From: Buttiauxella sp. A111
Lineage (GTDB): Bacteria; Pseudomonadota; Gammaproteobacteria; Enterobacterales; Enterobacteriaceae
Direction of reading: 5' to 3'
Assembly (NCBI RefSeq): GCF_014189855.1
Contig: NZ_BJFN01000009.1
Location: 1 to 64,000 of the forward strand
DNA length: 64,000 nucleotides
In this document: positions 30,535 through 33,696 of the stretch, one piece after another
Layout of the letters: each line of letters starts with the position of its first letter
Position numbering within the stretch: position 1 is the first letter of the stretch
Program-made: the position numbers and the translations under genes
Notes under the pieces: model-generated
The model's database searches: none
The model's input: the letters and a program-made list of their open reading frames with translations, nothing else
What the model was told of the DNA's origin: nothing

Positions 30535-31674
30535 TTATTTTCCTGCCACTTCGCGTAAGGCTGTAATCACGCGAGTGACATCGTCATCCGTCATCGTTGG
30601 GAATAAAGGAATGGAACAAATACGTTCACTGTTCCATTCGGTTTCAGGTAAAGAGAGTGCCGGGTAGCGTTCGCGATAATATTTCTGGGTGTGGGCGGCG
30701 CGGAAGTGCAAACCGGTGCCAATCCCTTTTGCTTTCAAAGCATCCATAAGATCATTACGGGAAATACCGCAGCGAGCTTCATCAACACGAATAATAAAAA
30801 GATGCCAGGCGTGTTTATGCGCCCAGTTTGGGTGGATAAGGGGTAAATAAGGCGTGTTCACCAGTTCAGCCAGATAACGCTCGGCTATTTCGGTGCGGCG
30901 TGCATTATTTTGTTCCAGTTTTTTTAACTGCACCAACGCGATGGCCGCGTTAATATCGGCAAGATTGTATTTATAACCTGGGCTAATCACCTCAGCCTGA
31001 GGCGCACGTCCGAGCGTTTGCCTGTCAAAGGCGTCAACGCCTAAACCATGAAACTTCAGGCTCCGCATCTTGTTTGCGAACGATTCATCGTCAGTGACAA
31101 TCAATCCACCTTCGGCACAGGTCATGTTTTTAATGGCGTGGAACGAGAATATTGCCGTCCCACGGTCACCCACATGTTTGCCTTTGTACCAGGTTCCAGC
31201 AGCATGTGCCGCGTCTTCAATCACTGGAATACCGTGGCGCTCACCTACCGCGCGGATAGCGTCAATGTCCACTGGCGCACCGGCATAATGGACCGGAATA
31301 ATTGCGCGAGTACGCGGGGTTATCGCGGCCTCAATACTTTCTGCGGTCACCATCAGCGTGTCGCGGTCAACGTCGATCATCACCGGCTCAGCGCCCAGCA
31401 GCACAATCATATTCAGGGTCGAAACCCAGGTCAGCGAAGGTGTTATCACCTCATCACCCGCCTGTATTCCCAACGCCATCAAAGCGACGTGCATCCCCGC
31501 CGTGGCGGAACTGACGGCTATCGCGTGTTTATTCCCGGTCAGTTCGCAAAATGCTTGTTCAAGCAGCTGATTCTTTGGCCCTGTGGTTATCCAGCCTGAT
31601 TGCAAAACTTCACTAACAGCGGACAGCTCTTCTGGCCCCATAGCGGGACGCGAGAACGGTAGAAATTCACTCAT
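30535..31674 (-). CDS. arnB: ArnB, UDP-4-keto-pentose aminotransferase
   Basis: 379 residues of the DegT/DnrJ/EryC1 PLP aminotransferase family. The PLP-binding lysine is at about residue 186 in [13 protein letters not shown], preceded by IEDAAHAAG. It transfers an amino group from glutamate to UDP-4-keto-arabinose to make UDP-L-Ara4N. It is the first gene of arnBCADTEF, so the regulatory region upstream (31.8-32.0 kb) controls the whole operon. Confidence 0.95.
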
Positions 31675-32038: not shown

Positions 32039-32237
32039 GTTGGTGGGAATAACTAAAATTTCTGTTATTTCCCTCCGATTGTGAATTACCGATTGCTCGG
32101 TTAAAAAGCGGGCAGCATTGGAAACACAGCAATAAAGTAAGTGTCGAGTTTTGAGGGGCAATCTGAGCAATCGCCTTTTTTCTCTTAGTCACATATTTGA
32201 GATGAGAGTGAGGGGTTTATATTGGAATTTGTGAAGG

Positions 32238-32852
32238 TTCCGTTCACTCGAAGTCTTCCGTTTTATGTGGCCACCGAACCGGTGAACGTATCAAGGGTGC
32301 CGCCGCGGCACCCTTGATAATCCCGGCTCCCGGCTCTAAATCGCCGCTGCGCGGGGACCTCCATTTTTCCTTCACCGTCCTGGGTCGGTTGTGATTCGCT
32401 CCCGGCGATCACAACCTCACGTCGTTCCCGACGACGTGACCCGTCCGTTAAAGTAAAAATGAAGGCGATTTATGCCGGACTCAAAGGTCAACATCAAAAC
32501 ACACAGTCAAAAGCCCAACCGGTGTTGACTTTGTTCCCGGTATAAATTGCTCCAGCGTTGCCCAAAAGTCAGGGTGGCGTGGTCGGGAACCACGCCAGTG
32601 AGCGATCGTCGGACAAAAATGTTAGGAACATTTTTGAGCAACGTTTACGTTGGCCACGAAGTGGTTCGTCACAGGGATGTGACGAATAACCGAATCGCGA
32701 ACGACCCTGAACGTTGGGGATAAGCTGGGGTTTACCGCGTAGCGGCAATTTAAAACCGGGCGCCGAGGTTGCCAGGAGGATGGCGTAATCCTCCTGGCAC
32801 GTTCACCGTGAGCTGTGGTGACAGAGATAACCAGTCGTACGGGTGAACGGAA
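32238..32852. repeat. Structured non-coding element with terminal inverted repeats
   Basis: About 615 bp with no credible gene. It is bounded by TTCCGTTCAC (32238-32247) and its reverse complement (32843-32852), and filled with perfect hairpins. These are ATCAAGGGTGCC at 32290-32318, GGTTGTGAT at 32387-32416, CACGTCGT at 32418-32438, TGGCGTGGT at 32575-32597, AAAAATGTT at 32615-32635, TTCGTCACA at 32665-32686 and GCCAGGAGGAT at 32771-32798. It lies between the arn upstream region and the iolB 3' end (28 bp away). It may be a dispersed repeat family or a structured RNA. Its name and mobility are unknown to me. Confidence 0.7.
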
Positions 32853-32880
32853 AACCTGAGAGGCTTACCGATCCCACGGT

Positions 32881-33696
32881 TTACTCTCGCGGATAATCAT
32901 GATTAATCCATGCGTGATCCGCTTCCCAAGTAAACATCCATTTGCGTACCGGCCCGGCCATCACGTTGAGGTAGTAACTGTCGTACCCCGCCATCGTTGC
33001 CACCGGGTGATACCCTTTTGGCACCATCACCACATCGCGATTGTAGACAGCCATACACTCATCGAGCTTCCGGTCATCGGTATAGACGCGCTGCATGCAG
33101 AATCCCTGCACCGGGTTGAGGCGATGATAATAGGTCTCCTCAAGGTAGGTTTCCTGCGGCGGATTGTCGGTGTCGTGTTTATGGCTGGGATACGAACTGG
33201 TGCATCCTTCGTTCGTCCAGACTTCCACTACAAGCAGGCTATCGGCTGCCTGATCCTCCGGCAGAATATTGTGTACATAGCGCTGGTTATGCCCCTTACC
33301 GCGGGCTTCAGCGTTAATATCCTGCGGTGCGATAAGCCGGGTCGGCCAGGTTCCTTTGCCAGGTGCTGCGCACACCGCCAACTCAATGCGGGTCAGCGCC
33401 TGCACATGCACGCTTTCGCCGGGCGTGACGTAGACCGCCCACGGTTTTTTACGCTCAAACGGGCTCATCCTTTCACCGATATCAGCAAAGTTTGCCGTCG
33501 ATGTACTGATGGAAGCCCGTCCGGCCACTAACACCAGACAGCGCTCTTCGCTCACCGCAGGCAAGTTCAGTTGCTGCCCTTCGGTTAGCTCAAAAACCTC
33601 AAAGCCAACATAGCCCCAGCCCGCACGCTCCGGCGTGACACATTGCGTGCGTCCTTGTGCATCCGGCGACTGCCAGCGCGATAATAAACGCGACAT
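32881..33696 (-). CDS. iolB: IolB, 5-deoxy-glucuronate isomerase
   Basis: 271 residues with a two-cupin fold. The metal-site region is SYPSHKHDTD with later histidines and YHRLNPVQGFCMQRVY, typical of IolB. It converts 5-deoxy-D-glucuronate to 2-deoxy-5-keto-gluconate, the substrate of IolC. A strong ribosome site (AGGAGGT) precedes the ATG at 33696. It is the last gene of the leftward iol operon, 9 bp after iolE. Confidence 0.93.
   Translation of the reverse strand: MSRLLSRWQSPDAQGRTQCVTPERAGWGYVGFEVFELTEGQQLNLPAVSEERCLVLVAGRASISTSTANFADIGERMSPFERKKPWAVYVTPGESVHVQALTRIELAVCAAPGKGTWPTRLIAPQDINAEARGKGHNQRYVHNILPEDQAADSLLVVEVWTNEGCTSSYPSHKHDTDNPPQETYLEETYYHRLNPVQGFCMQRVYTDDRKLDECMAVYNRDVVMVPKGYHPVATMAGYDSYYLNVMAGPVRKWMFTWEADHAWINHDYPRE

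Follow-up and report, generated by a model that had tools for sequence, protein, structure and literature searches.

Which kind of element is the 615-bp stretch at positions 32238-32852 of the window, by which we mean the whole 64,000 nucleotides of Buttiauxella sp. A111 DNA that were analysed, and what does its wealth of hairpins signify? The core element sits between arnB (30535-31674, minus strand) and iolB (32881-33696, minus strand) and begins about 29 bp past the iolB stop codon; the gene names are those of an earlier sequence-only reading, and we take them to be correct, as they are consistent with the ORF products. This reading had considered a large structured RNA, a miniature non-autonomous element or a 3' region that regulates the iol operon. 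Of these three explanations the first two are supported, and supported together; an iol-specific role is not. With moderate confidence, we favour the view that the element is a non-autonomous mobile palindrome of two inverted RNA half-units related to the TwoAYGGAY motif, the transcript of which would present GGA loops to CsrA or a related protein.

A palindrome of two inverted half-units

A scan for non-overlapping perfect hairpins (stem of at least 8 bp, loop of 3-10 nt) returned six within 32238-32852, with stems of 14, 12, 10, 9, 9 and 9 bp, and a seventh (32387-32416), whose stem has 9 bp and whose loop has 12 nt, was read directly from the sequence. This agrees with the at least seven hairpins described in the sequence-only reading; the longest stem is of 14 bp and not 12. 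Two hundred dinucleotide shuffles of the element held on average 0.08 such hairpins (maximum 2), and of 210 segments of 615 bp taken along the 64 kb, 167 held none, 37 one, three two, one three and two five. The core termini are inverted repeats with 12 of 13 positions complementary and the outer 10 exact, as expected from the 10-bp repeats first described. The boundaries proposed at the same time match the core, but similarity between copies extends further out, with an IS50-like left end at about 32178-32196. The ORF list holds no frame of at least 80 aa within the element, in line with the judgement that no protein frame is credible there. At the gathering threshold Rfam returned tRNA alone from the window, and phage and plasmid collections searched with the window element gave no match; with the element of a relative (L129), 30 records of the plasmid collection were matched, several of them chromosome-sized.

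The element is a non-coding palindrome made up of two half-units, each some 200 nt long, in inverted arrangement (Table 1). On one strand, each half-unit has nested stems around two GGA-loop hairpins, followed by a separate end hairpin; the right half-unit is longer because of an insert at 32613-32690. A profile of the right half gave 315 hits in 193 loci, of which 236 were near full length and 220 unique. The half-units counted below are the 209 with a length of 185-215 nt, a range that excludes the right half of the window copy. A covariance model, R1, was built from 29 half-units of other genera (alignment A1, which comprises 29 of 31 representatives, both rows of locus L119 being left out). 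Applied to 86 loci, R1 gave 128 matches, including 41 neighbouring pairs within 700 bp, and 38 of these pairs were ordered minus-then-plus, that is, outward, with two plus-then-minus and one minus-minus.

Table 1. Features of the window copy (window coordinates; GGA, loop motif; R1, covariance model built from other genera).
Feature	Position	Strand	Basis
Left outer end, IS50/Tn5-like 19-bp repeat CTGTCTCTTAGTCACATCT	32178..32196	+	3 mismatches to the family's own left end
Stretch in whose place G009, second genome of the species, has 33 bp at the arn-iol site	32182..32878	.	genome comparison
Core element bounded by inverted repeats	32238..32852	.	
Core terminal inverted repeat, left arm	32238..32250	+	
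Core terminal inverted repeat, right arm	32840..32852	-	
Left half-unit, GGA loops on minus strand	32281..32476	-	R1, 115.2 bits, model positions 1-203 of 203
Right half-unit, GGA loops on plus strand	32539..32807	+	R1, 87.4 bits, model positions 1-203 of 203
End hairpin HP1, left half; stem varies among copies, pairing kept	32289..32319	.	hairpin scan; helix 9 in Buttiauxella alignment
Hairpin HPb, left half; loop holds GGGA on minus strand	32387..32416	-	read from sequence and consensus loop
Hairpin HPa, left half; CGGGA loop on minus strand	32417..32439	-	hairpin scan
Hairpin HPa, right half; CGGGA loop	32575..32597	+	hairpin scan
Hairpin HPb, right half; loop widened by inserted module	32602..32698	+	copy comparison and R1
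78-bp insert, second GGA-hairpin module	32613..32690	+	other copies of the same genome without it
Insert hairpin, loop TTAGGAA	32614..32636	+	hairpin scan
Insert hairpin, loop CAGGGATG, form of the CsrA/RsmE consensus CANGGANG	32665..32686	+	hairpin scan
End hairpin HP1, right half	32770..32799	.	

Copies, sites and outer ends

Searching the genome with the element gave 48 matches that merged to 14 loci, two of which have a shortened form of some 207-210 bp and one a single half. The element was matched in 12 of 12 Buttiauxella genomes, and its core mostly measures 546-549 bp from end to end; the search for further copies suggested in the sequence-only reading was thus productive both within the genome and across the genus. 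Several draft contigs start or end inside the element (C4, C20, C45 and C67 of genome G006, and others), so that draft genomes probably understate the number of copies. In Leclercia adecarboxylata (L221, 5999-7000) part of a half-unit repeats every ~162 bp next to a full copy.

In G009, the second genome of the species, 33 bp occupy the arn-iol site in place of the 697 bp of the window, with a junction too untidy to show a target duplication. This empty site, the 14 copies and the 9-bp duplications at some other copies support the miniature non-autonomous element proposed earlier. That the stretch instead serves to regulate the iol operon from its 3' side we regard as very improbable: its position just beyond the iolB stop codon would suit such a role, but a close relative lacks the element at this site and the further copies adjoin many different genes. 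At 5 of the 10 loci common to both genomes of the species the element is oppositely oriented (L031/L104, L035/L098, L038/L096, L040/L103 and L041/L105), which reflects either true inversion or draft-assembly error in the window's 37-contig genome. The short forms L042 and L043 are found where the second genome has 569 bp (L100) and 561 bp (L099), and look as if the palindrome had lost its inner part.

The core is flanked in a number of copies by 19-bp outer ends of the form CTGTCTCTTA..., which we take to resemble the ends of IS50/Tn5. When up to 7 mismatches are allowed, 21 of the 54 copies examined carry both ends and 33 are without a recognisable pair; the window copy has a left end with 3 mismatches and lacks the right one, the best candidate having 11 mismatches of 19. 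The 9-mers on the two sides match exactly at L076, L084 and L092 and agree at 8 of 9 positions at L077/L107, which is one site in two genomes, and in the remaining 16 of the 21 two-ended copies they differ by at least 3 mismatches. The Tn5-type transposase domain PF14706 was found in none of the 12 Buttiauxella genomes, the E. coli control being positive. Taken together, the ends, the 9-bp duplications and the lack of PF14706 suggest that a Tn5-type transposase, no longer present, probably carried some copies along as passengers. In B. agrestis, copies with IS50-like ends (L084, L076, L077 and L082) are often located within CCCTCTCCC...GGGAGAGGG palindromes, which hints at a target preference.

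A purely selfish miniature transposon would also be expected to have IS50-like ends and 9-bp duplications at some of its copies; template switching and gene conversion, among copies as well as between halves, would preserve its palindrome, and its loops would have no function. The apparent deletion forms (~207-210 bp at L042 and L043 against 561-569 bp in the second genome) and a preference for gene 3' ends like that of other such repeats fit this explanation as well. It nevertheless appears quite unlikely to us, since the loops are conserved across families of the order while the stems change on both sides, which exceeds the needs of palindrome repair, and since compensatory changes occur between genera and not only within one genome.

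With respect to neighbouring genes, the 54 Buttiauxella sites, several of which are the same site in different genomes, comprise 25 codirectional, 24 convergent and 4 divergent arrangements and 1 that is unclear. Thus, the element is mostly situated past the ends of genes, where transcription might reach it by read-through. Single half-units (n=48, an incomplete list assembled by hand from R1 matches plus the copy of E. coli K-12, with L121, L128, L140 and L211 among those left out) have the GGA strand in sense at 10 and in antisense at 8 codirectional sites, with 25 convergent, 1 divergent and 4 unclear sites. There is accordingly no sign of selection for the sense orientation, and this, along with the antisense position of the K-12 copy, argues against a 3' UTR site selected in cis.

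Covarying fold, GGA loops and strand

The fold is under selection or kept up in some other way. Among the 29 half-units of other genera in A1, 94.7% of cells are paired and both sides have changed in 41 of 54 pairs, and in a second alignment, A2, of 21 Buttiauxella half-units, 97.6% of cells are paired with both-side changes in 28 of 55 pairs. When partners were slid as a control, pairing fell to 38-45% (A1) and 31-46% (A2), a comparison that favours the structure strings, as these were derived from the alignments themselves. Further pair types in A2 did not rise above shuffles (53 against 54.1, with 389 of 500 shuffles as high). The aligned copies thus display, in strong form, the covariation that the sequence-only reading had proposed to look for, in support of its large structured RNA, and the case that it had set against a selected structure, a single copy with neither conservation nor covariation, is excluded by the many copies and the covarying fold.

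The GGA loops are conserved. GGA occurs in both inner hairpins of 120 of 120 half-units of other genera with a length of 185-215 nt, and in 88 of 89 and 89 of 89 Buttiauxella half-units for the two inner hairpins, respectively, with stems that vary. GGA loops per half-unit number 0.99 and 1.49, compared to 0.12 and 0.19 in shuffles. Among the 120 half-units from other genera, 95 have loops that read A-N-GGA-X and sit on a C-G pair, A being present in 94 of 95 and 95 of 95 and N and X being variable, a count that is partly circular for one of the two hairpins because this group was picked for at least one CANGGANG. The other 25 of the 120 and the Buttiauxella half-units have CNGGA pentaloops. 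Accordingly, the core loops of the window copy are of the CGGGA type and not ANGGAX hexaloops, and one loop of the insert (32665-32686) has the consensus form; the Buttiauxella core loops have drifted from ANGGA to CNGGA. A GNRA tetraloop was considered as the cause of the loop conservation and rejected because N is also T or A.

An ANGGAX loop directly on a stem is a high-affinity RsmE site (PMC4005645, in the part available), and the CsrA consensus obtained by SELEX is RUACARGGAUGU (PMC7652899, in the part available). CsrA is encoded in the window genome. As the core loops are CNGGA and not ANGGA, binding of CsrA by the core of the window copy would be the weakest step of the reading that we favour.

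To ask which strand matters, G-U was compared with A-C among the predicted pairs. A first test on one strand gave an apparent ratio of 14:1, which a control on the reverse strand showed to be mostly prediction bias. One-strand predictions being biased towards their own strand, only pairs predicted from both strands were used thereafter, and on the GGA strand these gave 56 G-U to 18 A-C cells (39 to 12 column types), or 14:4, 24:5 and 18:9 in the three groups; on representatives the ratios were 5:3, 9:3 and 3:1, with a total of only 17 to 7. Predicted fold energies were lower on the GGA strand in 3 of 3 groups. This modest strand test favours a functional single strand, be it RNA or DNA.

The hairpins might instead work as DNA, the folded single strand or cruciform being the substrate of a recombinase or transposase, as with REP or IS200/IS605-like elements, and the loop being the mark of the protein, with no part played by RNA. 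Mobility and inversion are observed in the DNA, the element being oppositely oriented at 5 of the 10 loci common to both genomes of the species, there is no sense-strand preference beside genes, and the G-U excess is compatible with this explanation in that G-T pairs are tolerated in DNA hairpins too. We nonetheless hold it to be unlikely. The A-N-GGA-X loop, in which N and X are free, corresponds to an established contact between protein and RNA, relatives of the element pass the model of a published RNA motif, and an unsystematic look between the halves found no recombinase gene.

Relatives and comparison with known systems

In the own family, R1 finds relatives in 42 of 119 genomes (at most 20 candidates scored per genome), and in the order in 21 of 197, 14 of the latter lying outside the own family, in six families; in the class, 7 of 143 genomes are matched, the own genome among them and the others weakly. 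When 20 of the 35 listed out-of-family matches were fetched, all 20 had GGA in both loops, and in 38 of 40 loops an A precedes GGA directly or by one base, a conservation that is not fully independent as the R1 consensus itself holds GGA. Of 16 distant loci scanned, four (L296, L297, L310 and L315) pass the Rfam cut-off for TwoAYGGAY (RF01731) at the same place and on the same strand as R1, and the cut-off is also passed by three genomes of the own family (G013, G014 and G020), over the two-hairpin core. These matches indicate homology at the level of the models, and we accordingly class the enterobacterial half-unit as related to TwoAYGGAY. No RF01731 match was obtained in 11 Buttiauxella genomes, and 14 well-known genomes taken as control were also silent. 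The Buttiauxella copies, which miss both the RF01731 cut-off and the AYGGAY loop, are therefore to be regarded as a variant rather than a tested member. In the distant relatives (L296-L315) a long hairpin of the type GGTGACTTT...AAAGTCAC replaces the end hairpin.

E. coli K-12 MG1655 has a full half-unit at NC_000913.3 915033-915237 on the plus strand (L289, 5034-5238), which R1 matches with 183.2 bits. It lies between lysO and aqpZ at a site without annotated feature, is antisense to both neighbours, and has loops that are both of the CANGGANG form. Of 5426 complete E. coli genomes, 3904 contain a match to a 91-base piece of the element. If the half-units are the same kind of RNA as TwoAYGGAY, the question of CsrA binding is testable in the K-12 copy.

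The insert in the right half of the window copy is situated within hairpin HPb and is absent from other copies of the genome, a similar module being present at 45024-45108 of contig C7 of the same genome. Its hairpin order is that of AaHKsRNA22 (RF02902), with GGA loops in the first and last hairpins; however, it scores 20.5 bits against a cut-off of 39.8, and the nearest copy of the insert, L044, is unmatched. RsmV is matched weakly within the insert (32663-32683, 13.8 bits). RF02902-like modules were found in 9 of 12 Buttiauxella genomes (E of 0.001 or better), one of them above the cut-off. Several reside inside repeats at L265, L274, L275, L267, L272 and others, repeats that we presume to be ERIC from their appearance, and one, at L271, lies between 23S and 5S rRNA.

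How the pieces might fit together can be outlined as follows. A TwoAYGGAY-type RNA unit would have given rise to an inverted pair, and this pair would have spread in the form of a miniature transposon, some copies travelling as passengers between IS50/Tn5-like ends, with duplication of 9 bp of the target. Since the two halves face in opposite directions, transcription from either side would yield one half in the GGA form, most often presumably within the tail of a neighbouring mRNA, and the two loops of that half could be presented to the CsrA dimer, or to a related GGA-binding protein, resulting in titration or in marking of the RNA. The inverted pair would render orientation irrelevant, which would suit a selfish unit that needs RNA from any site. 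More tentatively, and with a good deal of doubt on our side, it might be speculated that enterobacteria possess a transposon-borne, dispersed CsrA sponge, in which head-to-head TwoAYGGAY-type units give a two-loop docking site from either strand and wire new genes into the Csr network where they land, possibly to the benefit of the host. Buttiauxella would then represent an altered CNGGA branch that either evades CsrA or has switched to a different GGA-binding protein, and that regains consensus loops via a second hairpin module. We consider the CsrA sponge the most useful hypothesis, and it has already been suggested in print for the related family. If it is true, mobile repeats, often dismissed as junk, can spread the sites of a global RNA regulator, and a large enterobacterial repeat family has a common strand-specific RNA architecture.

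Several known systems share features with the element. ERIC, YPAL/RU-2, RU-3 and REP/REPIN are likewise short, non-coding, palindromic, intergenic and dispersed (PMC2229807 and PMC3733652, in the parts available). ERIC, RU-2 and RU-3 are of 127, 168 and 103 bp (PMC2229807, in the part available), in contrast to the ~547 bp of the element with its two half-units and nested stems. An origin as a REP/RAYT 'TIRtron' was dismissed, as the available part of PMC3733652 yields no testable sequence match. With the miniature elements of the IS50/Tn5 type (IS4 family) some copies share 19-bp ends and 9-bp target duplications, but PF14706 is lacking in the 12 genomes and 33 of 54 copies have no pair of ends.

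On the side of RNA, the CsrA- and RsmA-sequestering CsrB, CsrC, RsmX, RsmY, RsmZ and RsmV resemble the relatives of the element in their paired ANGGA-type hairpins, and RsmV belongs to the same Rfam clan as TwoAYGGAY. Unlike these RNAs, the element has only two GGA hairpins per half-unit and many dispersed copies. None of the literature matches listed, in the parts available, links CsrA with enterobacterial intergenic repeats. TwoAYGGAY itself was reported from the human gut, gamma-Proteobacteria and Clostridiales, its function being unknown to its discoverers (PMC2864571, in the part available), and was proposed to bind CsrA (PMC4333381, in the part available); the available portions of these two descriptions, PMC4333381 and PMC2864571, make no mention of mobility. 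The likeness to this motif (RF01731, clan CL00106) lies in two adjacent GGA-loop hairpins inside closing stems, and such nested closing stems around the two hairpins are present in the window, where R1 matches both halves at full length and where the Buttiauxella fold covaries. The insert loops of the window are AGGGAT and TAGGAA, and the first loop letter of the core is C. The Buttiauxella copies differ from TwoAYGGAY in staying under the RF01731 cut-off and in having CNGGA and not AYGGAY loops, and in that their unit is doubled in inverted orientation and mobile.
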